Under the pieces are notes generated by a model. That model worked only from the letters and a program-made list of their open reading frames with translations. It searched no databases and was not told where the DNA came from. The position numbers and the translations under genes are program-made. A DNA stretch of 22,558 nt from a virus: positions 1 to 22,558 of IMG/VR virus record IMGVR_UViG_3300025853_000723; one strand, 5' to 3'. Positions 1,733-22,558 of the stretch are shown piece after piece (positions within the stretch are counted from its first letter, which is position 1; each line of letters opens with the position of its first letter).

Positions 1733-2786
1733 TGCTGCGTATGATCGAATAATTGGAAACCGTGACAGGGTTCTGTCAGGAAAGGTCAACTGTATACCTT
1801 TCAAACTACCAAGACTCCAAAAATTCGTACCGGGACTTGAACCAAAGACCTACACCATAATCACAGCATCAAGTGGTGTGGGGAAGTCAAAGCTTGCTAA
1901 GCTGTTGTATGTGATAAGGGCGTATGATTACATCAGGGAGAACCCCGATTGTGGGATCAAACTGAAGATCTTTTACTTCTGCCTTGAGGAGTATAGAGAG
2001 ATATTCATGCAGTCACTTATCATCCACCGTCTTTATACTCTGTACAATAAGAGGGTGGATATCAAGGTACTGAACTCCATGCATCCTGAGAAGGTGTTGG
2101 ATGAGGAAACTGTTGAGCAGATAAGAGGGCTCAAGGAGTATTTTGATGAGATGGAGCGTAACTGTCTGGTGATCTATGATAGACTGAAAAGTCCTGAGAA
2201 GATATACCATGCGTTGAAAAGTTATGCTGAGACGAACGGTAAATGGGAGAATGATGTTTACGTTCCCAATGATCCTGAAGAGCTGGTGGTACCGATCTTT
2301 GATCACATATCACTTCTTCAACCCGGCAAGGGAGAATCATTGATGGATGCGATAAACAGATTCTCTTCAAACTTTCTTGTCGATCTCAGGAATACTTACG
2401 GAATGTCCCCTATTGTGGTGCAACAGCAGTCCTCTGATAAGGAGAAGCAGGTCTATACCACATCAGGTTCTTCTGTGGAATCAAAGTTGGAGCCGTCACT
2501 GGACGGCCTGGCCGACAATAAGAAGACACAGAGGGATGCGGACATGGTAATAGGACTGTTTGCACCTAACAGATATGAGATACCTCAGCACAGAGGTTAC
2601 AATATCCGTAAGATGCAGGACTTCTATCGATCCATCTCAGTTCTCAAGAACAGGTATGGGGCTTCAAATCTGAGAGTAGGGACGTTCTTTGACGGTTGCG
2701 TAGGTGACTTCGTAGAACTGCCCAATGTATCAGATGAAGTACAGATGAGTAGAGTTTTCAATTTAATAGAAACACTTAATGAGTGA
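1707..2786 (+). CDS. DnaB-family (SF4) replicative helicase
   Basis: 359 aa from the ATG at 1707 (a second ATG follows at once); an upstream ATG at 1641 is in frame but gives a 66 bp longer overlap with the previous gene, whereas 1707 has AGGAAGAAG just before it and overlaps by 26 bp. RecA-fold motifs: Walker A ASSGVGKS (residues 54-61), the acidic strand-end FCLEE (91-95, equivalent to the catalytic Glu region of DnaB), Walker B PIFDH (about 196-200), and a Gln-rich strand VVQQQSS (238-243, motif H4). There is little N-terminal domain, so it is close to the core ATPase alone. It should act as the ring-shaped 5'-3' helicase at the phage replication fork with the primase encoded at 4321. Confidence 0.85.
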   Translation: MMTGERTYDAAYDRIIGNRDRVLSGKVNCIPFKLPRLQKFVPGLEPKTYTIITASSGVGKSKLAKLLYVIRAYDYIRENPDCGIKLKIFYFCLEEYREIFMQSLIIHRLYTLYNKRVDIKVLNSMHPEKVLDEETVEQIRGLKEYFDEMERNCLVIYDRLKSPEKIYHALKSYAETNGKWENDVYVPNDPEELVVPIFDHISLLQPGKGESLMDAINRFSSNFLVDLRNTYGMSPIVVQQQSSDKEKQVYTTSGSSVESKLEPSLDGLADNKKTQRDADMVIGLFAPNRYEIPQHRGYNIRKMQDFYRSISVLKNRYGASNLRVGTFFDGCVGDFVELPNVSDEVQMSRVFNLIETLNE

Positions 2787-3513
2787 AATTATCCTGCCAA
2801 GGGAGAAGGTAAAGGCCACCCAGGTGAATCCTAGAAGGCTTGTGCTATATGCACCTCCCAAAATGGGGAAGACCACACTTGTATCAATGTTGGGCAACTG
2901 TCTGATACTTGATCTGGAGAACGGTTCTGACTTCGTTGATGCCATGAAACTGAAGGCGAACAGCGTAGATGAGATCCGTCAGATCATGGACAAGATAGAT
3001 GAAGCCGGAAAACCCTATGACTATATAGCCATAGACACGGTGACCAAACTTGAGGAGATGGTACTTCCACTTGCCCTCAAGTTGTACAAGAACACACCTA
3101 TGGGTAAGAACTTCAAGGGTGATGATGTCAGAAAGTTACCTAACGGTGCAGGTTATCTGTATCTGCGTGAGGCCTTTTCAAAGGTGATAGCACGGATAGA
3201 GAAGAGTGCATCAAAGGGTATAATCCTGATAGGTCACCTGAAGGAGAAGATGCTCGGTAAGGAAGGTAAAGAGGTGAATGCAAAGGACATCAACCTTACA
3301 GGACAGAACAAGAACATTGTCTGTGCTGATGCAGATGCCATCGGATACCTGTACCGGGACAAGAACAAGACCATTCTCAACTTCTCATCATCTGAGGAAG
3401 TGCTCTGCGGATCCCGATCTGCACACCTTAAAGGTAAAAGCATCATACTCGGTGAAGAGGTTGATGGTAATTTGGTATCCCACTGGGATGAAGTATATTT
3501 AACTAATCAGTAA
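2779..3513 (+). CDS. Sak4-like RecA-fold ATPase (recombination mediator)
   Basis: 244 aa. Walker A APPKMGKTT (25-33), a short acidic strand LILDLENGSD (42-51), and Walker B YDYIAIDTV (80-88). This spacing and the conserved KMGKT and LDLENG signatures match the AAA_24/Sak4 family of single-domain phage ATPases, known as RecA-like single-strand annealing partners that work with SSB. The ATG overlaps the helicase stop by 8 bp, indicating translational coupling. The next gene encodes an SSB-like protein, the usual partner of Sak4. Confidence in the ATPase family is high; the annealing role is from family knowledge. Confidence 0.82.
   Translation: MSEIILPREKVKATQVNPRRLVLYAPPKMGKTTLVSMLGNCLILDLENGSDFVDAMKLKANSVDEIRQIMDKIDEAGKPYDYIAIDTVTKLEEMVLPLALKLYKNTPMGKNFKGDDVRKLPNGAGYLYLREAFSKVIARIEKSASKGIILIGHLKEKMLGKEGKEVNAKDINLTGQNKNIVCADADAIGYLYRDKNKTILNFSSSEEVLCGSRSAHLKGKSIILGEEVDGNLVSHWDEVYLTNQ
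3494..3512 (+). promoter_or_regulatory. candidate promoter-like element (TATATTTA) before the SSB-like gene
   Basis: TATATTTAACTAATCAGTA overlaps the last codons of the ATPase gene, 31 bases before the next ATG. It shares TATATTT and a trailing CAGTA with the element at 11957. Only sequence similarity supports it. Confidence 0.2.
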
Positions 3514-5593: not shown

Positions 5594-5849
5594 TAGGGAT
5601 GTTCTGGAATATCTGGAGTCAAGGCTCGGGAAGAATGCATCTTTTACACTGGCACGTAATTATCTGGAGGACATGATGACAGAGTATTCACTCAATATCA
5701 TGGTACCTGAACCGGATGAGATGGTGATCCAGTTGATAAAGGATCATTATACACTAAGTACATATTATTCACAACTCATACAAAAATTTGAAGAAAATGA
5801 GAACGATCACAGTAAAAACAGGAAGCGGAGTACAGAGCTATCAGTCTAA
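5559..5849 (+). CDS. small hypothetical protein before the Ubl gene
   Basis: 96 aa, starting 35 bp inside the resolvase gene and ending 53 bp inside the Ubl gene. The sequence is predicted mostly helical (VLEYLESRLGKNASFTLARN, then DEMVIQLIKDHYTLSTYYSQ), with a charged, asparagine-rich tail. No motif is recognised. Because it overlaps both neighbours in other frames, its translation is probably coupled to the Ubl. Possible association with the Ubl pathway is guesswork from position. Confidence 0.6.
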   Translation: MDTLRIANLGLDRDVLEYLESRLGKNASFTLARNYLEDMMTEYSLNIMVPEPDEMVIQLIKDHYTLSTYYSQLIQKFEENENDHSKNRKRSTELSV

Positions 5850-6015
5850 TGCAACAACCTTGGCAGAACTTTCTGCAGAAACAGGAGTTGACTTTACAGG
5901 TCAGTCAGTAATTGCCAAGGAGGCAAGACTGATGATGGATGATCTGAGTACACCGTTACCTACAGGGAATATCACCCTCGTTGCCAGCGCTTCCCGTATG
6001 AAGGCAGGCGCTTAA
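5797..6015 (+). CDS. ubiquitin-like beta-grasp protein (Ubl)
   Basis: 72 aa from the ATG at 5797; a TTG three codons upstream is also in frame. The order of predicted elements fits a beta-grasp fold: strand TITVKT (3-8), turn, strand VQSYQS (12-17), helix TTLAELSAETG (20-30), strand QSVIAKEA (36-43), a loop with LPTG, and a last strand NITLVASASR (58-67). The start (MRTITVKTGSG) resembles the first hairpin of ubiquitin. The C-terminus is flexible and ends Lys-Ala-Gly-Ala, so Gly71 is one residue from the end, as in a Ubl precursor that needs trimming. E2-like, JAMM and E1-like genes follow at 6084-8713. Fold is inferred from pattern and context; ThiS/MoaD-like sulfur carriage is the main alternative. 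Confidence 0.68.
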   Translation: MRTITVKTGSGVQSYQSNATTLAELSAETGVDFTGQSVIAKEARLMMDDLSTPLPTGNITLVASASRMKAGA

Positions 6016-6020
6016 AATGA

Positions 6021-6055
6021 AAGGAGAGAGAGGCGAAAGCCTCTCTTTCTTTTTC
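6021..6055 (+). terminator. rho-independent terminator after the Ubl gene
   Basis: AGAGAGGC (6027-6034), a GAAA tetraloop and GCCTCTCT (6039-6046) form an 8-bp perfect stem, extendable through a G-T wobble and further A-T pairs. The T-rich run CTTTTTCTT follows. It sits 5 bp after the Ubl stop and closes the replication operon. Confidence 0.88.
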
Positions 6056-6083
6056 TTATTCACTAACTATAAATAAATATACC

Positions 6084-6986
6084 ATGGTGATAACACAGGC
6101 CGTCACGGCCGGATCCATAAAAGAATGTGCTCTGCATTTCTTTGATCATGTGGAAGTATCCTCCAATTTTGTGTACATACTGTTTCCGGAGCTTACAGTT
6201 ACCAATGAGCTGGATCTCAGTATAGACATACAGGATCTTGTAGTAAAGTTGGAGTACAGTATACTCAGGGACAATAAGGTCATGTTTGAAAACATGCAGG
6301 GACTGCGTATACAGACCGATCTTACTCAGTTTCTGGGATATTATTCCCACTCCCATCTTCCTAAATTCGGACTTGATGACTTTAACAGATTCTGTCTTGG
6401 AAGTGATACTCCTATGAAAGCTGCTTTGGATACTACAGAAGTTGACATGGATGTTGTATTCGGTCTTGTGAACTCATTCGTACGTAATGAATCAGTAGCA
6501 GGAGTACCTCATGTAAAACTGGATACTGTACTGGACCTGAACAATGTATTGTCACATCTCTTAAAAAGTAAGGTCCCTACCATACGTCACATATCAAGTA
6601 TTGCAAAGGATATGTTGGAGAATGGTAATCTTTCCTATCAGTATGTGTCTGACGGTATTCTTCCTAGAATAAAGATACGGTCAGGAGATGATGAGAGGTT
6701 GCTGAGACTTTTAGTGGACAATGGACTGGGAACAGACATGTCCTCTTATAGTATGTTACAGCTCATGCAAAAGATACACTTATCTGTTCGGGAAGAGGAT
6801 GGAGAGTATCATCTCGGTCTTTTGAATCCCTTTACCATTGACGGTGTGACAATTGACAGAAAACATATAATCCCTACTGAGGAGGAACTGTCCCACATCA
6901 GAGACAATGTGAGTTCAGGGGCTGAAGATGTAAAAAAGGCCTACAAGTATTTAGAAACATTCTTAAATAAATATCTTAATCTATGA
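6084..6986 (+). CDS. E2-like ubiquitin-conjugating-type protein (predicted)
   Basis: 300 aa. Residues 28-95 show strands in the order expected of a UBC/RWD-type fold (NFVYILFPELTV, LVVKLEYSI, LRIQTDL), leading to YYSHSHLP (86-93) and, 13 residues after the second His, FCLG (103-106). An HxH followed by Cys-Leu-Gly matches the pattern of prokaryotic E2-like families in Ubl cassettes (HPH...CLG), where Cys104 would carry the thioester-linked Ubl and the His residues shape the site. Residues 120-300 are a helical extension I do not recognise. The start follows an A/T-rich leader after the terminator. The stop overlaps the JAMM gene by 4 bp (ATGA). E2 identity rests on motif and neighbourhood, so it remains a prediction. 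Confidence 0.6.
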   Translation: MVITQAVTAGSIKECALHFFDHVEVSSNFVYILFPELTVTNELDLSIDIQDLVVKLEYSILRDNKVMFENMQGLRIQTDLTQFLGYYSHSHLPKFGLDDFNRFCLGSDTPMKAALDTTEVDMDVVFGLVNSFVRNESVAGVPHVKLDTVLDLNNVLSHLLKSKVPTIRHISSIAKDMLENGNLSYQYVSDGILPRIKIRSGDDERLLRLLVDNGLGTDMSSYSMLQLMQKIHLSVREEDGEYHLGLLNPFTIDGVTIDRKHIIPTEEELSHIRDNVSSGAEDVKKAYKYLETFLNKYLNL

Positions 6987-8005
6987 AACACTTTGAAATG
7001 CCCCAAGGTTATACCTTGATGATCAGCCCATCGCTGATGAATGAGATAGCGTATCTTCATTCAAAGAATGACAATAAGGAATGGTGCGGTGTACTGTTCT
7101 ACGAAGAAGTATCAGGATCCATCTTTACAGATGATCTTGTGCTACGTGCAAAACACATCTATCTTCTTGACATAGGAAGTTCTTCATATACAGAAGGCTC
7201 CATTGATCTTGAACTCCTTGATTTCTTTGAAGAGGTTCCTGAAGCTGAAGACATGAAACGTGGATTCATTCACACTCATCATGGTATGAAAGCATACTTC
7301 TCAGGAACTGACATGTCTGAGCTGTATGACAATACCAAGTACTATGATTACTATCTGTCCCTCATAGTCAACCATGCTACCCTGTTTGTTACCAAGATAG
7401 GCATGGAGGCTGAGATAGGAGTGACAGGAACTGCATTTAAAATAGAGAACCCACCTATTCTTACATTCGATGGTAAGGTGGAGTTTGATATTCCTGTCAA
7501 CCTTGCAGCAAGACAGTTCAAGCTGTCAAAGCCTGTGGTACAGGGATATCAGAGTTCAAGACAGTTGTACAAGGACACTCCGTTCGAGGATCATATCTCT
7601 CCTAACCAGATGACCATCTTTGATGTGCCTGGAGTGGAGTCTGAGTTTGATAAATATCCGGAGCATATGTACAGCATCAATGCCTTTACTGCAGTACGTA
7701 AGTTGATAGGTCTGCCGATAAGTAAGGAGTTTACAAAGGAAAATATCATAAATGCGTTGAAACCCTTTGAAGCTTTTTCTGAAGAAACAAAGCGGGCCAT
7801 CATTGATACTGAGATAGAGCATTCTATCGGTCTTATTTTACAAGAGGTCTATGGTACTCAGGAAGAGGATGTGGTTTTAGGATGTAATGAGATCTATAAC
7901 GTGATGGCGGATTATTTTCCAGAAGACAGAGAGCTCAAGGATCATCCGTTCGTACAAGAAGTGATAAATACACTTTTTGAAGAAATAGGAGTATTGACCA
8001 TGTAA
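6983..8005 (+). CDS. JAMM/JAB-domain metalloprotease (Ubl isopeptidase/processing)
   Basis: 340 aa. The JAMM zinc site is complete: Glu33 in KEWCGVLFY, His97-x-His99 in FIHTHH, then seven residues, Ser107 and Asp110 (SGTD), i.e. E...HxHx7SxxD. In this family the two His and the Asp bind Zn2+ and the Glu activates water, cleaving the bond after a Ubl glycine. The JAB domain occupies about residues 10-150. Residues 150-340 are an unrecognised extension that may bind the substrate or partner enzymes. It is translationally coupled to the E2-like gene (ATGA overlap) and lies 30 bp before the E1-like gene. It could both trim the Ala from the Ubl C-terminus and remove the Ubl from targets. The JAMM call is very secure. 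Confidence 0.9.
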   Translation: MKHFEMPQGYTLMISPSLMNEIAYLHSKNDNKEWCGVLFYEEVSGSIFTDDLVLRAKHIYLLDIGSSSYTEGSIDLELLDFFEEVPEAEDMKRGFIHTHHGMKAYFSGTDMSELYDNTKYYDYYLSLIVNHATLFVTKIGMEAEIGVTGTAFKIENPPILTFDGKVEFDIPVNLAARQFKLSKPVVQGYQSSRQLYKDTPFEDHISPNQMTIFDVPGVESEFDKYPEHMYSINAFTAVRKLIGLPISKEFTKENIINALKPFEAFSEETKRAIIDTEIEHSIGLILQEVYGTQEEDVVLGCNEIYNVMADYFPEDRELKDHPFVQEVINTLFEEIGVLTM

Positions 8006-8035
8006 TTACAGTAACTTATAATAAAATCATATAAA

Positions 8036-8713
8036 ATGAATGATACACGTTATGGTAGATTCAAGGACAGCCCATGGTTCGGTAAATCCCTCCCTCCTAT
8101 TATTGTAGGAGGTGCGGGCGGTATCGGATCATGGTTCATGATCCTTCTGATGCGTACAGGAGATCATCAGGTAATGCTGATGGATCCTGATATTGTAGAG
8201 GAGAGCAATCTTGCAGGTCAGTTCTACACTGAAGCTGATATAGGTAAAACAAAGGTGGCTGCTGTCTCTGATCATGTTGATAGGATGTGCGGTAATAAGC
8301 CTGGGCTGTTTTACAATACTGAAAGATATCTTCCAGGATCTGAGGCTACTCCCATCATGGTCTCATGTTTTGATAACATGCAGGCCAGACAGGACATGTT
8401 CGCCAACTGGGAGAAGCAGGACAACCCTAAGCTCTTTATAGATGGTAGGATGAATGCTGAGGCGTTTCAGTTATTTGCAGTGACCCCTAAGAATGCAGAG
8501 AGGTATAAAGAACATCTGTATGATGATTCCTCTGTACCGGATCTTGCATGCAGTTACAAGGCAACTTCTCACACTGCAGCCATGCTTGCAGGTAAGATGG
8601 TCGCTGTTTTGAACAATTGGATATGCATTGATCATGGATCTGATGCGACCAGGGAGTTGCCTTTCTTCATAAAGTATGATCTTTCAATGATGATGGAAAC
8701 CGTAGAGTTATGA
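8036..8713 (+). CDS. ThiF/E1-like Ubl-activating enzyme
   Basis: 225 aa, the size of a minimal adenylation domain. The Rossmann nucleotide-binding loop is VGGAGGIGS (24-32). Acidic MDPDIVEESNLAGQFY (49-64) matches the E1 signature DxD..(S)NxxRQ except that the Arg is Gly61. ADIGKTK (67-73) supplies the conserved lysines, and CFDNMQARQD (111-120) matches the conserved Asp-Asn...Arg strand. DLACSYKATSH (169-179) gives Cys172 at the position of the usual catalytic-Cys or CxxC region, followed by the hydrophobic helix typical of ThiF/MoeB proteins. Expected reaction: ATP-dependent adenylation of the Ubl C-terminal glycine and possibly thioester formation on Cys172. The genomic context argues for conjugation over cofactor sulfuration. 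Confidence 0.9.
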   Translation: MNDTRYGRFKDSPWFGKSLPPIIVGGAGGIGSWFMILLMRTGDHQVMLMDPDIVEESNLAGQFYTEADIGKTKVAAVSDHVDRMCGNKPGLFYNTERYLPGSEATPIMVSCFDNMQARQDMFANWEKQDNPKLFIDGRMNAEAFQLFAVTPKNAERYKEHLYDDSSVPDLACSYKATSHTAAMLAGKMVAVLNNWICIDHGSDATRELPFFIKYDLSMMMETVEL

Positions 8714-9432
8714 GAATAATACACAATAAAAGCAATAAGAAGGTGATACGGTCCATGCCGGTCACAGGTTGGCCTGTAGAACATAGAGTGATTGATGGTT
8801 ATATCTATGGATTCTCAAACTCAGTACCTCTGTTTGAGATGAAGTACAACACTTCAGCTAGATTCATTCCTCTTGATGCCATTATTCAAGGGTCAAGCTC
8901 CATAAGCTGTAAGATCATACACAGTTATGGAAAGAAACGTAAGGATATAATGGATCTTGTAAATGATCATGTGGGAAATGATGTTGCCAACTATATGATG
9001 AGCAGTAGAGCTCCTTATGATGATACTCTGTTCCTTAAGGATGGGGTCATGTACAGACATAAGGATGATGTTGTTATCCCACTGTTCGGATTATTCATAA
9101 AGAACAATACTACGAACAGGATATCCATTAAGAAGGATGTTGCCATCAACGCTGCAATAGGTAGCTCTGTCATCAATGTTCCGCATGACTCAGTACTGTA
9201 TGTTCATCCGCTATGCCTTACAAAAGGTACAAAGGAGGAGTATACTTTCGGACCACATGTGAGAAAATTGAAAAAGACCTTTGAAAGACTTGAGTATTCT
9301 GAGGATCTGAGTATATTTGACGACATGTTCGATCACAGGATCAAGGCCCCTAAGGGATTTGGCGAGTTTGAACAGTTCAACAGTAAAGTAAATACACACT
9401 TAAAACAACTAATAAATGAAATCTATGAATGA
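8710..9432 (+). CDS. unknown protein coupled to the E1-like gene
   Basis: 240 aa, starting at an ATGA overlap with the E1-like gene, so probably made in step with it. It appears alpha/beta and soluble, with no signal peptide or membrane segment. A notable short motif is YVHPLCLTKG (164-173), a His-Pro..Cys-Leu that is superficially like an E2 site but lacks the surrounding strand pattern. The C-terminal third is helical and basic (VRKLKKTFERLEY). I do not recognise the family. Its fixed place in the cassette makes it a candidate accessory or target-recruiting (E3-like) factor, by association only. Confidence 0.8.
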   Translation: MRIIHNKSNKKVIRSMPVTGWPVEHRVIDGYIYGFSNSVPLFEMKYNTSARFIPLDAIIQGSSSISCKIIHSYGKKRKDIMDLVNDHVGNDVANYMMSSRAPYDDTLFLKDGVMYRHKDDVVIPLFGLFIKNNTTNRISIKKDVAINAAIGSSVINVPHDSVLYVHPLCLTKGTKEEYTFGPHVRKLKKTFERLEYSEDLSIFDDMFDHRIKAPKGFGEFEQFNSKVNTHLKQLINEIYE

Positions 9433-10438
9433 ACAGGAGTACAGAAATGCAGAGGGTATATCAAGGTCACTTCTCAGTGACTTTGATGATCACCCCATGA
9501 ATGTGAAAGAACCCAGAGAAAGTGTAGAATCAGATGCATTCCGTATAGGGAGTGCATTTGACGCTCTGATGTTCCAGACACCGGATGAATGGAATGAGAG
9601 ATACTATGTATCGACTGCAACTCCTCCTACAGGAATGATGGTAGGTATGGTAGAGGCTGCAATAAACATCAAACTTGCAGATCCTTTTGGAGATGTTGAT
9701 GTTGCAGATCTTGCGTTTGAAGCCTCTGACTACAAGCCTTCCTATAAGAAGACCGCACTTACTCAGTTTGAGACCTTCAGTGACTACATCAACGAAAGAT
9801 GTGAGAATGATGGTAAGGTCTGTATTTCTCAGGAAGAGTATGATATGATGAGCAGAATGAAGGCGAACTGTCTGACAGACAGCTCTGCCAGAAGATTCTT
9901 TATCAGAAATGCACATCCTGATCTTGAGCTGAAGTTTCAGGTACCGGTATTCTGGGAGCAGTCAGGAGTAACATGCAAGGCCCTTCTTGATATTGTACTT
10001 GTAGATCATGCGGAGAAGAAGATATACCCTGTGGATCTGAAGACAACTTCAAGCAGTGTATATTATTTTGCATCTTCATTCATCAAGTACAAGTATTATC
10101 TACAGTCCTCCATGTACACTGCAGCAGTTGAAGAGCTGTTCGCCAATGAGATCTCTGAGGGTTATACTGTTGAGAACTTCAAGTTCATTGTAGTAGGCAC
10201 TACTGGACGCAATGAAGTTCTTACATATACTGTATCTGATGCAGATCTGCGGGCAGGAGATTACGGTTATACTGATCTGTATGGTAACTATCATAGAGGT
10301 TGGATAACCCTTCTTGAAGATCTGTCATGGCACTATGAGAATGATCTTTGGCAACATCCACGTAATGTGTATGCACACGATCATGACATGCCTTTAAACT
10401 GTACAGCACCATGGAAACAGCAACTGCAGTTACAATAA
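9416..10438 (+). CDS. RecE/Exo8-like PD-(D/E)XK exonuclease
   Basis: 340 aa, with an alternative Met at codon 4 (9425); 9416 overlaps the previous gene by 17 bp. The motif order is that of the PDDEXK_1/exodeoxyribonuclease-VIII group: an N-terminal ISRSLLSDFDDHP, then FRIGSAFDALMF (42-53) where the family usually has GxxxH, Asp192 in LLDIVLVD, Asp207-x-Lys209 in YPVDLKTTS, and Gln230/Tyr234 in YLQSSMYTAAV (the QxxxY motif). These enzymes resect double-stranded DNA 5'-3' and pair with an annealing protein; the Sak4-like ATPase at 2779 and the SSB-like protein are the obvious partners. The GxxxH histidine seems replaced by Asp49. Confidence 0.85.
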   Translation: MKSMNEQEYRNAEGISRSLLSDFDDHPMNVKEPRESVESDAFRIGSAFDALMFQTPDEWNERYYVSTATPPTGMMVGMVEAAINIKLADPFGDVDVADLAFEASDYKPSYKKTALTQFETFSDYINERCENDGKVCISQEEYDMMSRMKANCLTDSSARRFFIRNAHPDLELKFQVPVFWEQSGVTCKALLDIVLVDHAEKKIYPVDLKTTSSSVYYFASSFIKYKYYLQSSMYTAAVEELFANEISEGYTVENFKFIVVGTTGRNEVLTYTVSDADLRAGDYGYTDLYGNYHRGWITLLEDLSWHYENDLWQHPRNVYAHDHDMPLNCTAPWKQQLQLQ

Positions 10439-16873: not shown

Positions 16874-16901
16874 AGGGGAGGTGTAAAAGCCTCCCCTTTT
16901 T
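16874..16901. terminator. terminator hairpin between convergent operons
   Basis: AGGGGAGG (16874-16881) pairs perfectly with CCTCCCCT (16890-16897) and is followed by TTTTTATTT on the + strand, a strong rightward terminator. On the - strand the hairpin is followed by CTTCTTCT, weaker but possibly usable. The minus-strand gene stops at 16904, so the T tract abuts its stop codon. Confidence 0.87.
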
Positions 16902-16903
16902 AT

Positions 16904-19900
16904 TTAGTTTGCTAGAACTTCTTCTATCAATTGTTCTGTGATCGTTTCCTCTGTTTCGTAGATCGATGGGTTGAACAGTCCTGCTACATTCATTACCTGA
17001 TTGAGCAGTGGTATCTGCTTAGAGGTATAGTACAACATAGGAGTTGTGTCCCTTCTTGAGTTTTCTCCTAATAGCAGGTCTCTTGTTTCATCTACACCAT
17101 TGGATATTATTTTATCTATACTCTTTATTAAGGACATTACCGGGAATGGAAACTTTGCAAGTTCTACTACAGATTTTGGAGAATGTGGGAATGAAAGTTC
17201 AACAGATGTTCTTTTCAGCATCAGGAACAGATTTCTTGTTATTATGTTGTTCTCATCAGGATCATCCCAATTTAGTCCTGCTGATAGGAACAATACCATT
17301 GCACCAAGAGCTGCGGCCATCCTGGCCTCTATTATAGCTCCCCTCATCTTATCTTCCATAAGCTGGATAAAATCCTGCTTTGTGAATCTACCTCTGAGTT
17401 GTGGGTTTATTTCCAGGAACTCCTGATACTTCTTTTCAGCATACTCTCCCTTTAATTTACCTTGATAGTAGTCCAACATGAGAGGCATGGTGGATATCAT
17501 TACATTTTTCAGGTTTTCAAGTCCCGGTGCTATTCCCTGTTTGAACATCATTCCTAAAAATACTTTGTATCTACCTATTTCAAGGTCATCAAGTATTGCA
17601 TCGTATTTTATATCTCCAAACCTTGACTGCACTATACCAGGCATCCATGTCCTGAACTTCATTGCCATTTGAAACAGAATGTTTCCTTGCATTGCAGCTC
17701 TCTGCTCTTCAGAGATGGATCCTTTTACATTGAATGCTACCTTTCTTGTACGGTTACGTAGAGTAGTGAACAGTGATGGATTCTCTTTGAATATGTCCTT
17801 ACCATTGTGTATGATGCTCAGCTTTCCCTTTTCATTTTTGAACTCCATGTCCATGATGGATGTGAAGTCTCCTTTGGCCCTGTCACGTCTTACCACTTTA
17901 CCGGTACTGTCTACACCATGGCTTTTTAGTAGAGATATGAGGATCTTGTTGTCAATGGCATCATCACCAAGTCTGTGAAGCACAAATGCATTTCTCCAGG
18001 TCATGAACTGTTTGCCCCATGATGATGAGGTCTTTTCAGCTTCCTCATATGTAAGATTTCTTGTAGATGGTCTGAAAAAGGCAACAGCATGTGCAGCTTT
18101 TATCTTATCATCTGTCATATCATCCTCTGCAGTGAACTCTGCAGATCTTATGATAGGTATTATCCTGTCAGCGTATTTAAGATCTTCCTGATTGAACACA
18201 CGCCCTTCACCTGCAAGGAATTTGAGGTTTGCCTTTGCTCCCTGATAAGATGCAAAACCCAGAGGTACGTTAAGTGCAAGTGCTTTGAGAGATAGATAGG
18301 AATGGAACTTATTAAGTAGTTTCTGTCCTGCTACTCCTGCAAATTCCACATCGGATCCTTTCTTTCCATATAGTAGGAAATCCACATGTCTATCGAACAG
18401 AGCCACTGTATCGTTACTGATGCCTATACGCTCAGCTATCTTTCCCATGAGTTTATCCTTGATAGGACGACCGAACTCATCTACTACAGTTTCGTTGACA
18501 TCTCCGTTGACGAGTATTTCCCTTAATGTGAGTACATCCTCTTCAATATTCTTCATCTCAGCAAATCTATGCACTGAGTTTGTAAGAAGTATCAATGAAG
18601 ACGTCAGGTCCACTGACTTTACATTCCTTCCTTTCTTGTACTCTGCTGCAGCTATTGCAGTGTCAGTTGCAGTTTTCAATGCATTCTGAAAATCCCTACT
18701 TGTAATACTTTTTTGTTTTTGCTTGAACTCCTCTTCCAGTTTTATTCTGGTAGTTGATTCTATCTGCTTTTGTTCTTTAGGAGATAACTTTATTCTCATC
18801 TCATCAGTATACAACAGAGGTATACTTCTTTTTCTTTCACCGGTTTCTGGATCTGTCCTACCTACTACTTCATCCTGTTCACGGATCTGCAGATCATACT
18901 TAAAGGCATTCCACAGCTCTTTTACCCCTTCAACCGGTCCCAACTCCATTATCTTATCGGTCATTGACTGAGATACATTTGCAATGAAGTTTCTTTTGAT
19001 CTTTGTCTCAGAACCTACAAGAGAGTCAAACTTCTCGTTCAGACCGGTGTACATCTCATAATAATCTTTCAGGGCCTGATTCCCTGATTGATTCATAAGA
19101 CGGTACAACTCTGATGCATATTGTCCTGACTCTACATTAGGTTGAAGGAATGCAGATGTCAGATATGCACTTTTATTTTTGTTAGGGTTATGCTGTTTTT
19201 CAAAGGTCTCTTTTGCATCCTTTACCTTTTGATCAAGTCTCTTTTTAAAGTCAGCGTCACTTTCTTTGAACCCCTTTCTCATATTGAAAAAGGCTGCAGC
19301 ATCAAAAGCCGGATCATTGTAGATGGCAAGCTCCTGATCTCTGGCCTCCTGATATTTCTTTTCGTTGAATGTAGTATTGGTCTCAAACCATTTTACATCC
19401 TTATTCTTTTTGGCCTTTTCCCTATCATCATAGAACTCCTGTCTTGCAGGCGTTACCAGTGACATGTTCTTTTTATTTATCATCATGTCGAACACTTCCT
19501 GCAAAGACCTTCCACTTGACTTTGCCCATGCCTTTAAGGCCTCATGTTTTTCCTGGATCTCTCTGATATCATCAAAGGTATTGTTCTCTGCAGCATCCCT
19601 TGCCTGTGTGAACAGTTGAGTGAATCTCTGAAATACTGGAGAATCCACTTCAGCTACTCCTAAGAAGGCCCTTCCCATTACTCCAGGCTTCTTACCTGTA
19701 TGTCTCAGGTCTATTTCGTCTCCTGCCTCCTCATTCATACGGTCGAACAACATTCCTTCCAGAGTGCTTACCATATTATTGATCTGACTTCCTACGTATA
19801 AGGCCTCACTTTTATCAAGGATACCTTGAAGCTCTCCAGACTTCAGAAGTTTTTTAAGCTCTTTCTCTGTTTTACCCTTTAAGGCTACAAACTCATCTGA

Positions 19901-21277
19901 GTTAGGATCCACTGCCTTTATTATCTCTCCAAAGAACTGCAGTTCGTTGATGTAGTTTCTGATGTCTCCGGCAGAAAGATATGATCTTGACCCTTTTTTG
20001 ATCACATTCATTTTCTTTGTGATCTCTTCAATGGTATTGGACGCCATCTTGGTGACATCCTTTACATCATCATAGAGTCTGAGTGCCTGCATTGCAGTAT
20101 CTATCTGATTGAGTTTGATCTCTATCAGTTTACGTGACTTTTTATTTGAAGTGGATCTGTAGTCTGACAACAGCTTTGCTCTTTGACCTTCCAATCTTTT
20201 GATGGCATTGTCTGTAAGTTTCTTTCCAGTGACCTCTCCAGCAACCGGTACAGGATCAAGTGTTCTTGTACCTATGGTACCTGCCATGTTTATGGCTTTA
20301 ACTCTGTCTGCAATGACAAGCTTGTTCTGTTTTTTGTCAAATACCTTATAGTCGACTCCAATAGGTATGATACGTGACTCTCGAAGGTCTTCAATACCGA
20401 GTTGACTCTTTAGCATTTCCTTGTAGTTGCTCAACTGAATGTTCCACTCAGTGATCTTACTACTGTTCACCACATTCCTACCCTCATCAAGAGCGGACTT
20501 TGAAGTGTACATGGTCTTGAAGTCAAGTATTCCCACCTGACCATTGGAGTATACTATGACAGCATCTATTGTACCGGCAAGGTCTTTGAACTTGTCATGC
20601 ACAACATGCTCTGTAAGTATGATGGGTTTTTTATCAGGATCTATTGTTTCCTGGGTCTTGATGATATTATCATACAGCTCACGCACACCTTTATCAAGAT
20701 TAAGCATTGTCTTATTGTCAATGCTCTTTACCCACTTAGAATCTATACCTGCAGATACCAATGCCTTTTCAACCTCAGATATCATTTCAGCATGGGACAT
20801 TTTCTTTATACCGGTAAAGTGCTTGAACATGTTCTCCACTAACATGTGTACAGTTGTACCGATGTCTGCTGCAGTAGTATCACTGCTCGAGTATGCTCCT
20901 ATCTCATCACGGTATTTCTTTACCAGATCTGAAACACGGTTTGCTATTACTGTAGAGGTTTCCATGTCTTTGTAACCTTCAGGAGTTTTGACTGCTGTCT
21001 GATTTACAAGTTTTTTCAGTACCTCGACCTGAAGCTCAACTCCTTCAGGATCTGCTTCCAGTATGGCATCTACCACAGGCTCTCCGTTCTCATCCCTGGC
21101 ACCTTCATACTTATCTATGAATGAAGGTACATATGCAAGTAACCATTTGTCCAATGCTACTTCAGCATCCCCTGTCTTTTCTACAAGATCCTTATACAGT
21201 TTAGAGGAGTTTCCGTTATCAGCAAAGACCCCCTCTATGATCTGGCTGTTACTGTTTCTTACTATTGAGCAACTCAT
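16904..21277 (-). CDS. giant multidomain protein with N-terminal PD-(D/E)XK nuclease domain
   Basis: 1457 aa. Residues about 135-290 form a RecB/Cas4-type nuclease: DIGTTVHMLVE (138-148, the GxxxH motif with His144), TEHVVHDK with Glu223, LAGTIDAVIV (Asp238), GILDFKT (Asp252, Lys254) and WNIQLSNYKEML (Gln281, Tyr285). Residues about 20-75 contain KYEGARDENGEPV, a wording that recurs in large polyvalent phage proteins. The middle is highly charged and helical (about 370-870). Near 1318-1338 lies a hydrophobic stretch (AAALGAMVLFLSAGLNW) able to span a membrane. There is no polymerase-type DxDGD motif. Size, membrane segment and position in the leftward arm suggest a virion protein injected with the DNA; that is inference. 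Its ATG overlaps the upstream gene's stop by 4 bp. Confidence 0.82.
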   Translation of the reverse strand: MSCSIVRNSNSQIIEGVFADNGNSSKLYKDLVEKTGDAEVALDKWLLAYVPSFIDKYEGARDENGEPVVDAILEADPEGVELQVEVLKKLVNQTAVKTPEGYKDMETSTVIANRVSDLVKKYRDEIGAYSSSDTTAADIGTTVHMLVENMFKHFTGIKKMSHAEMISEVEKALVSAGIDSKWVKSIDNKTMLNLDKGVRELYDNIIKTQETIDPDKKPIILTEHVVHDKFKDLAGTIDAVIVYSNGQVGILDFKTMYTSKSALDEGRNVVNSSKITEWNIQLSNYKEMLKSQLGIEDLRESRIIPIGVDYKVFDKKQNKLVIADRVKAINMAGTIGTRTLDPVPVAGEVTGKKLTDNAIKRLEGQRAKLLSDYRSTSNKKSRKLIEIKLNQIDTAMQALRLYDDVKDVTKMASNTIEEITKKMNVIKKGSRSYLSAGDIRNYINELQFFGEIIKAVDPNSDEFVALKGKTEKELKKLLKSGELQGILDKSEALYVGSQINNMVSTLEGMLFDRMNEEAGDEIDLRHTGKKPGVMGRAFLGVAEVDSPVFQRFTQLFTQARDAAENNTFDDIREIQEKHEALKAWAKSSGRSLQEVFDMMINKKNMSLVTPARQEFYDDREKAKKNKDVKWFETNTTFNEKKYQEARDQELAIYNDPAFDAAAFFNMRKGFKESDADFKKRLDQKVKDAKETFEKQHNPNKNKSAYLTSAFLQPNVESGQYASELYRLMNQSGNQALKDYYEMYTGLNEKFDSLVGSETKIKRNFIANVSQSMTDKIMELGPVEGVKELWNAFKYDLQIREQDEVVGRTDPETGERKRSIPLLYTDEMRIKLSPKEQKQIESTTRIKLEEEFKQKQKSITSRDFQNALKTATDTAIAAAEYKKGRNVKSVDLTSSLILLTNSVHRFAEMKNIEEDVLTLREILVNGDVNETVVDEFGRPIKDKLMGKIAERIGISNDTVALFDRHVDFLLYGKKGSDVEFAGVAGQKLLNKFHSYLSLKALALNVPLGFASYQGAKANLKFLAGEGRVFNQEDLKYADRIIPIIRSAEFTAEDDMTDDKIKAAHAVAFFRPSTRNLTYEEAEKTSSSWGKQFMTWRNAFVLHRLGDDAIDNKILISLLKSHGVDSTGKVVRRDRAKGDFTSIMDMEFKNEKGKLSIIHNGKDIFKENPSLFTTLRNRTRKVAFNVKGSISEEQRAAMQGNILFQMAMKFRTWMPGIVQSRFGDIKYDAILDDLEIGRYKVFLGMMFKQGIAPGLENLKNVMISTMPLMLDYYQGKLKGEYAEKKYQEFLEINPQLRGRFTKQDFIQLMEDKMRGAIIEARMAAALGAMVLFLSAGLNWDDPDENNIITRNLFLMLKRTSVELSFPHSPKSVVELAKFPFPVMSLIKSIDKIISNGVDETRDLLLGENSRRDTTPMLYYTSKQIPLLNQVMNVAGLFNPSIYETEETITEQLIEEVLAN

Positions 21278-22558
21278 TTACAAGTATCTTCTGTTCCGTT
21301 AGTATCTTTTTTCTCCTTCACTGCCTCCTTTCCTTTAAGTTCTCTGGTATTCTCATCAGCATCTTCAACTATAGGCGCTATGTTCTGAGCCTTATCGAAC
21401 AATGGATTTTCTGATGCAGCTTTACCCTTCATCTTAGTATGCATTGTACCTTTAAGGATCTTTCTGTTTGTAGTATCAGTGAAGAGTTTTACAGCTCCTC
21501 TGCCTTTTAACATCTCATATTGCTTGACATACTGTTCCATAGGTATGAATGTAACTCCTTCAGGCCCTCCAAAGATAGGCATCATTCTGTCTATCAACTC
21601 TCCGTTATTGTCATATGTTTTAGTTGTAACTTTCAATCTTTTAATGAAAACATCCATACCGGCAGCTCTATCAGCCTCAAGTTTCTTTTCATTGTCTTTT
21701 CCAAGATACTCAGGTTTAAGAGCATACTCCAGTTTAAGAGCCACTCTTCCTTTTCTTGGAAGTATGTCAGTGTTGTTGTAGTTACCAAGTACACTGTCAA
21801 AGAATGTATAGTTCTTGAACAGACGTTGACTTTGAATACCCATTGATCTGTATTGATCATATGCATTCTGTACCAGTTCTGAGGTATACTCGGAAGGTAT
21901 GTATTTGGTAAATCCTACTGGATGGTTTCTGAATCCGAACTGTACTATTGCAGTTTTTGCAAGTCTGTCTGCAAAGCTTCTTATTCTTCTGTCATTATGC
22001 GTCATAAGTTCTCTCCAACCATCTATTACATCATCTATGTCTGTAGGCTCCTTAGGCTGATCATACATCAATATCCTATCACCTCCCTCTTCATTGAATA
22101 TAGGAGTAAGTCTGGATATGAATGCATTCTCTTTTGCAAGGTCAGGTAGCTGTTCTTTGAACTTTTTAAGCTGCAGAGCTGATGATGCATTTCCTGATTC
22201 CACATCTGTTACAAGAAGATTTCTTATTTCCTGTGTAAGAGTTGATGTCGAGCCTTTCAATGGCATCAGCGTTACAAGATTATGGATCATGTCATTCATG
22301 AATATGTCCATCATGTTTACCATGGTGTCAAATGACATGAACATGTCCTTGTAGTACTCCTCAAACTGCATTTCAATTGCAGGAGTTGCAAGTGATTTAT
22401 TGAACTCAGGGAAGAACGGTTTGTACATTTCCGGTATGGAATCCACTGATTTTTTGAACTCTTTTAGATAATTACCTTCAGTGAATACTGTATTGTAACC
22501 TTTGATGAAGTTGTTCTTTCTGATCTTTTTCATCTGCCAGTCTCTTATTAAGGTAACT
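21274..22558 (-). CDS. large phage protein, C-terminal part (runs off right edge)
   Basis: The frame is open to the window end (VTLIRDWQ precedes the Met at 22533), so the true start is probably outside. The 427 visible codons begin with a basic segment (KKIRKNNFIKGYN), then helices rich in Met and Phe (EYYKDMFMSFDTMVNMMDIF, MNDMIHNLVTLMP), a mixed alpha/beta centre, and a charged disordered tail (ENTRELKGKEAVKEKKDTNG). The visible Met at 22533 is a possible but unproven start. It is translated just before the 1457-aa protein (ATGA overlap), so the two probably act together. No family recognised; likely structural or ejected. Confidence 0.7.
   Translation of the reverse strand, partial: VTLIRDWQMKKIRKNNFIKGYNTVFTEGNYLKEFKKSVDSIPEMYKPFFPEFNKSLATPAIEMQFEEYYKDMFMSFDTMVNMMDIFMNDMIHNLVTLMPLKGSTSTLTQEIRNLLVTDVESGNASSALQLKKFKEQLPDLAKENAFISRLTPIFNEEGGDRILMYDQPKEPTDIDDVIDGWRELMTHNDRRIRSFADRLAKTAIVQFGFRNHPVGFTKYIPSEYTSELVQNAYDQYRSMGIQSQRLFKNYTFFDSVLGNYNNTDILPRKGRVALKLEYALKPEYLGKDNEKKLEADRAAGMDVFIKRLKVTTKTYDNNGELIDRMMPIFGGPEGVTFIPMEQYVKQYEMLKGRGAVKLFTDTTNRKILKGTMHTKMKGKAASENPLFDKAQNIAPIVEDADENTRELKGKEAVKEKKDTNGTEDTCK

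Follow-up and report, generated by a model that had tools for sequence, protein, structure and literature searches.

A RecB-type nuclease domain on a putative virion cargo protein of crAss-like phages

We analyzed a window of 22,558 nucleotides (the whole stretch of DNA studied, positions 1 to 22,558 of IMG/VR virus record IMGVR_UViG_3300025853_000723) and examined a minus-strand gene encoding a 1457-amino acid protein, P0001. P0001 carries an N-terminal PD-(D/E)XK nuclease domain in front of a long α-helical body, which is homologous to proteins packaged in the virions of crAss-like phages, and its gene overlaps that of the virion RNA polymerase. We consider it likely that P0001 is a late-expressed virion cargo protein of a crAss-like phage, a counterpart of gp49 of crAss001 and g065 of Cellulophaga phage phi14:2 with a nuclease at its N-terminus, which would be packaged together with the RNA polymerase, ejected into the cell and cut DNA early in infection.

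The nuclease domain of P0001

The reading frame of P0001 has zero internal stops and encodes the ordered motifs G140-T-x-x-H144, E223, G235-T-x-D238, D252-F-K254 and Q281-x-x-x-Y285. The original prediction had placed the PD-(D/E)XK motif set within the first 300 residues, and we found all of the residues that it named at those positions. The same ordered set (regular expression GxxxH / E / GxxD / DxK / QxxxY) occurred in 1 of 5000 shuffles of P0001. Pfam PDDEXK_1 matched residues 130-336 with an E-value of 9.6e-6 (26.1 bits against a curated cutoff of 22), and the PHROG matches of P0001 were only weak exonuclease ones, lying over the nuclease domain. Other Pfam matches (SRP54_N, HTH_63, TraI_2_C and others) fell below cutoff and were rejected. 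Among 20 family members, most of them about 19-25% identical to P0001 and one 75% identical, G140, H144, E223, D238, D252, K254 and P305 were invariant (20/20), and Q281, Y285 and G235 were kept in 18. Because the columns kept in at least 85% of these members were few and mostly belonged to the catalytic set, the pattern suggests an active enzyme rather than a relic, and the domain is predicted to have nuclease activity.

We built a fold model of residues 1-420 from 18 sequences of the window and IMG/VR (mean predicted local distance difference test (pLDDT) value 77.6). As the prediction of a nuclease fold anticipated, the model matched the nuclease domains of AddAB and RecB with Z 9.5-12.2 over 164-187 residues. 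Nearly all of the solved structures that resembled the model most were RecB/AddB/Cas4-type nucleases: over residues 106-348, AddAB reached Z 12.2 and RecB Z 10.3, and MGME1, Dna2, Cas4 and RecE about 8-9. A plain Foldseek search with the nuclease model ranked the same families on top, at E-values of only about 1e-3. By fold and motif, P0001 carries a complete RecB/AddB/Cas4-type PD-(D/E)XK nuclease domain. It resembles the AddB, RecB and Cas4 nucleases in its GxxxH, GxxD, DxK and QxxxY motifs and in its fold (Z 10-12), but no helicase was found, and the nuclease of P0001 is fused to a phage cargo body.

Body homology and the case for packaging

The original prediction saw no recognised domain in the more than 1100 residues behind the nuclease; we found instead that the body belongs to a known cargo family. 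A body profile built without gp49 matched crAss001 gp49 (E 4.5e-36) and other proteins of Steigviridae and Suoliviridae (E 1e-47 to 1e-23), and gp49 matched phi14:2 g065 (E 3e-21). The predicted structure of the P0001 body matched the BFVD model of the g065 structural protein with an E-value of 1.2e-11, and residues 3-74 of P0001 aligned with residues 5-72 of gp49 at 30% identity (blastp, E 0.001). The P0001 body is homologous to gp49 and, through gp49, to g065. Like P0001, gp49 (a virion cargo protein and 'putative RNA-polymerase subunit') combines this body and N-terminal segment with an RNA polymerase gene as neighbour, but it carries an EExxH zincin-like domain in place of the nuclease, and the nuclease-like domain of crAss001 lies in gp47. 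Similarly, g065 adjoins the characterised virion RNA polymerase g066 and is found in virions, but no nuclease was detected in it, and it has an intact HExxH at residue 245.

A homologue on IMG/VR contig 3300030376_004413 was 75% identical to P0001. A full-length relative, cr108_1 gp052 (YP_010111146.1; Crassvirales, Steigviridae, Pipoluvirus; 24% identity, tblastn E 6e-79), shares the nuclease, the body and the last position in the late gene arm; it differs in its low identity (24-26%), its annotation as hypothetical and an extra N-terminal part of 390 residues with an EExxH zincin-like segment. Single-sequence scans of viral contigs with P0001 or cr108_1 gp052 gave no relative, whereas alignment queries did. 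Sequence searches of the PDB with P0001, its upstream neighbour P0002 and the body profile gave nothing credible, and matches to apolipoproteins and helical bundles (E>0.04) were attributed to composition. Members of the body alignment gave no consistent match in PHROGs or Pfam. A hydrophobic stretch, predicted near residues 1318-1338, is real: its best 19-residue window lies at 1313-1331, with a mean hydropathy of 1.75 compared with 1.73 for a control, the predicted transmembrane helix of crAss001 gp45, and all nine of the family members that we checked have such a stretch at the equivalent position.

The P0001 gene closes the late arm and is convergent with the replication arm; a terminator-like hairpin sits exactly between the two arms, and GC and AT skew flip where they meet. 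The homologous gene occupies the same last position in cr108_1, phi14:2, cr111_1, cr55_1, cr4_1 and cr118_1. The stop codon of the virion RNA polymerase gene and the start codon of the P0001 gene overlap (ATGA). The polymerase portion in the window, P0002, shares 62% identity with the C-terminus of a 2595-amino acid protein in a close relative (L008), which has the polymerase motif GSDYDVDK and matches the phi14:2 gp66 virion RNA polymerase (E 1e-21). We rejected P0002 as a complete gene of 419 amino acids because its frame runs open to the window end. The motif GSD(Y/F)D(V/I)DK was present in the gene directly upstream of the homologue at eight IMG/VR loci (L008, L027, L030, L031, L037, L044, L045 and L046). 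The features of the locus are listed in Table 1.

Table 1 Coordinates of features at the P0001 locus
Feature	Position	Strand	Basis
Gene for the 1457-amino acid nuclease-bearing putative virion cargo protein (P0001)	16904..21277	(-)	Open reading frame scan
RecB-family PD-(D/E)XK nuclease domain, residues ~114-319 (H144, D238, D252, K254; Q281/Y285)	20321..20938	(-)	Pfam, family hidden Markov model (HMM) and motif table, fold
Conserved segment at the N-terminus (residues 1-76), containing an SxLFxDLL-like motif (SSKLYKDL), common to crAss001 gp49	21050..21277	(-)	blastp, motif list
α-Helical body, residues 421-1457	16907..20017	(-)	Body HMM against crAss001 gp49; BFVD match to phi14:2 structural protein
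Conserved motif at residues 1186-1220, GSISEEQRAAMQGNILFQMAMKFRTWMPGIVQSRF, resembling T7 gp16 KVSLQDSHAFGALGKMVMQFKSF	17618..17722	(-)	hhalign
Hydrophobic membrane-like helix, residues 1313-1331	17285..17341	(-)	Hydropathy scan, nine family members and gp45 control
C-terminal part of virion RNA polymerase gene (P0002)	21274..22558	(-)	Frame open to window end; homology to L008 protein
Terminator-like hairpin GGGGAGG-CTTTTACA-CCTCCCC, then TCTTCTTCT (T-rich tail)	16875..16896	(-)	Read directly from sequence

In crAss001, mass spectrometry of virions detected gp47, gp49 and gp50, which are described as cargo that is broadly conserved and modeled as being ejected in partly unfolded form ahead of the DNA (PMC10172136). 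The annotation of phi14:2 g065 and g066 is likewise based on tandem mass spectrometry. By analogy, P0001 would be translated right after the virion RNA polymerase, probably off the same transcript, and packed with it in the cargo zone of the capsid. At infection it would be threaded through the tail ahead of the DNA, partly unfolded, and refold in the cell. The helical body of about 1000 residues and the C-terminal hydrophobic helix would serve packaging and ejection, possibly contacting the inner membrane or the polymerase, and the nuclease would act on DNA during the first minutes after infection begins, when no new phage proteins have yet been made. The earlier proposal of an injected protein is strongly supported by homology, with a body related to the virion-detected gp49 and g065 and a late-arm gene coupled to that of the virion RNA polymerase, and packaging in this phage is what we infer from it; the 'NGEP' wording once cited in its favor is weak evidence on its own. 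Several points weigh against this picture. For P0001 itself, presence in the virion is predicted from homologues and DNA cutting from motif and fold, and the body model has low confidence (pLDDT 61.6). Since crAss001 gp49 lacks such a nuclease, the virion data stem from body homologues rather than from a nuclease-bearing protein. Moreover, the phage's own linear DNA, as it enters, would be exposed to an injected exonuclease, so that protection or regulation would be needed. Location in the late arm, taken alone, would also suit an ordinary cytosolic late protein that acts in head assembly or DNA packaging and is not ejected, but the presence of the homologues gp49 and g065 in mature virions (PMC10172136; phi14:2 annotation) makes this highly improbable.

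Heads across relatives and a weak likeness of the body to T7 gp16

We compared the N-terminal heads of related cargo proteins. On the body tree, 19 proteins with the nuclease (that of cr108_1 and 18 of the window and IMG/VR) formed one group with Shimodaira-Hasegawa-like approximate likelihood ratio test (SH-aLRT) support of 100; the nuclease was also present in cr55_1 and cr4_1, which lie elsewhere on the tree. The second large cargo protein, gp47 or a counterpart of it, carries a related nuclease-like domain in crAss001, cr128_1, cr116_1, bajarodcaudo virus and DAC15 (E 1e-11 to 7e-8), and the match in the Dulem virus counterpart was weak (0.002). These gp47-type domains have D where P0001 has H144, and N or D at the place of E223. 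The domain of crAss001 gp47 (L003:13120-20145), unannotated and spanning residues 1718-1878 (E 1e-11), reads GTSVD (H to D) and keeps DxK and QxxxY. The nuclease profile detected no such domain in the tested cargo proteins of phi14:2, cr111_1, crAss002, cr118_1 and cr50_1, a set that does not cover all cargo genes; we accordingly dropped the idea that the nuclease always resides in exactly one cargo protein per genome. Given the related domain in gp47-type cargo, the domain therefore appears in different cargo polypeptides, though undetected in some genomes.

At the place of the nuclease, crAss001 gp49 and its near relatives, which are without the nuclease, carry an EExxH zincin-like segment. 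The HExxH form was found in phi14:2 (L018/L053 g065), cr55_1 (L013), cr4_1 (L014) and cr114_1 (L019), and EExxH in many others; this recurrent substitution across the family may reflect a non-peptidase role. In cr55_1, the protein of this cargo family, gp071 (L013:3972-9995), also has an ADP-ribosyltransferase domain (ART-PolyVal, E 5.9e-10). Relatives with nuclease, zincin-like or ADP-ribosyltransferase segments thus present different heads on a common body, a theme of polyvalent proteins (Iyer et al. 2017, PMC5512222). The label 'polyvalent' given to P0001 earlier fits at the level of this theme, as relatives bear ART-PolyVal or zincin-like segments at the same end, and the P0001 gene shows the polyvalent trait of being encoded near late virion genes, overlapping that of the virion RNA polymerase; P0001 itself has one recognised enzyme domain. 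Under translation table 11, the cargo genes of cr4_1 (L014:4437-9848) and cr114_1 (L019:3945-8699) contain 18 and 38 in-frame stops, respectively, those of cr4_1 all being TAG except the terminal TAA, which is consistent with stop reassignment. For the P0001 gene and its IMG/VR relatives, the standard code gives an open frame.

We also considered whether the body belongs with the ejection (ejectosome) proteins of the T7 gp16 type. In that case a nuclease would have replaced the N-terminal peptidoglycan-cutting domain of gp16, and the protein would form part of an inner-membrane DNA channel rather than a subunit of the RNA polymerase. When the body model was re-aligned to 353 PDB chains, two phage ejection or core proteins ranked fourth and eighth and, among the first fourteen chains, had the longest alignments (8vb2_A, PhiM1 ejectosome, Z 7.1, 214 residues; 9vvp_W, Z 6.4, 196 residues); these Z values are under the trustworthy level for helical models, and plain Foldseek of the body against the PDB listed no ejection protein at E<=10. 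BFVD listed 'Protein inside capsid D' (E 2.4e-3) and 'Internal virion protein D' (0.03), below the crAss homologues. The hhalign score against the T7 gp16 family rose from 34.7 to 43.5 (E 0.013 to 0.0011, the latter alignment spanning 79 columns) as both profiles were deepened, compared with a mean of 18-20 and a maximum of 27 for shuffled controls and 14-24 for unrelated crAss protein families against the same body profile. On the other hand, a short RNA polymerase segment scored 40 against gp16, a reversed gp16 control scored 29.9 (reversed profiles 27-30), and searching PHROGs and Pfam with single sequences yielded no gp16 family. When the family was divided in two and each half built separately, both picked the same gp16 segment, one of them weakly. 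The aligned C-terminal motif, approximately S-x-x-D-x-x-A ... M-x-M-x-F-(K/R)-(S/T)-(W/F) ... (R/K)F, is followed on its C-terminal side by a hydrophobic stretch in both the body and gp16.

T7 gp16 (internal virion protein D) thus resembles P0001 in having a large helical body behind an N-terminal enzyme, with a weakly similar C-terminal motif and a hydrophobic stretch; it differs in that its enzyme is a peptidoglycan (lytic) transglycosylase, where P0001 has a nuclease, and any homology between the two is tentative. We treat the similarity as a lead and not as membership; a literature search found no report of the link. A gp16-type body is a plausible reading that falls somewhat short of probable, and it is compatible with P0001 being ejected virion cargo, which it would specify further. 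A more doubtful extension would make gp16-type ejection proteins of the giant crAss-like cargo proteins described as 'RNA polymerase-associated', with interchangeable effector heads (DNA nuclease, zincin-like, ADP-ribosyltransferase) in place of the one that cuts peptidoglycan.

Possible nuclease substrates, neighbouring genes and significance

Host, rival or defence-associated DNA may be the likeliest substrate of the nuclease, a choice for which we see nearly an even chance; it is favored because later steps have a separate exonuclease-like protein, encoded in the replication arm (9416-10438, DUF3799). Alternatively, the nuclease could process the phage's own genome, resecting the ends of the entering linear DNA for recombination or circularisation. 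The fold is nearest to the end-dependent exonucleases AddB, RecB, RecE and MGME1, and the phage invests in recombination-type genes (the DUF3799 PDDEXK protein and a Sak4-like ATPase recognised by eye at 2779-3513), but the replication-arm exonuclease, once expressed, could do the same job, and we regard own-genome processing as rather unlikely. Still less probable is that the domain processes nucleic acid as a component of the virion RNA polymerase complex, handling transcript or template for example: homologues are annotated as RNA polymerase-associated and the two genes share the ATGA overlap, but relatives keep the polymerase while the domain is absent or lies in another cargo protein (gp47).

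Other genes in the window were noted in passing. The DUF3799 protein (plus strand, E 1.3e-6) is a second, separate PD-(D/E)XK protein and likely the PDDEXK_b of crAss-like phages. A possible ubiquitin-like modification module at 5788-9432 (plus strand) comprises a 75-amino acid protein, a JAB peptidase-like protein (Prok-JAB, E 4e-5) and a ThiF/E1 protein (E 5e-17), adjoining two unassigned proteins at 6084-6986 and 8710-9432. An annotated ThiF gene also lies near UDG in Dulem virus 41, a phage whose cargo genes are crAss-like.

Yutin et al. (2021, PMC7886860) had already reported that some large proteins of the transcription block in crAss-like phages contain PDDEXK domains. P0001 belongs to these proteins, and its kind is already known. 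At the level of domain architecture that finding is the same as ours; the text of that paper available to us offers no mechanism and does not trace the domain from one cargo polypeptide to another. To this we add a motif-perfect nuclease across a clade of environmental crAss-like phages, a related domain (H to D) in gp47 of crAss001-type relatives, zincin-like and ADP-ribosyltransferase heads in relatives, and a weak likeness of the body to T7 gp16-type ejection proteins. A nuclease kept clade-wide in cargo, with a related domain in another cargo protein of the crAss001 type, suggests a function in the first minutes of infection, for which attack on host or rival DNA, counter-defence and processing of the entering genome are candidates. 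The gp16 link, if real, would give the crAss-like cargo proteins a role in DNA ejection, and a single polypeptide would both help thread DNA into the cell and deliver an enzyme against the host.

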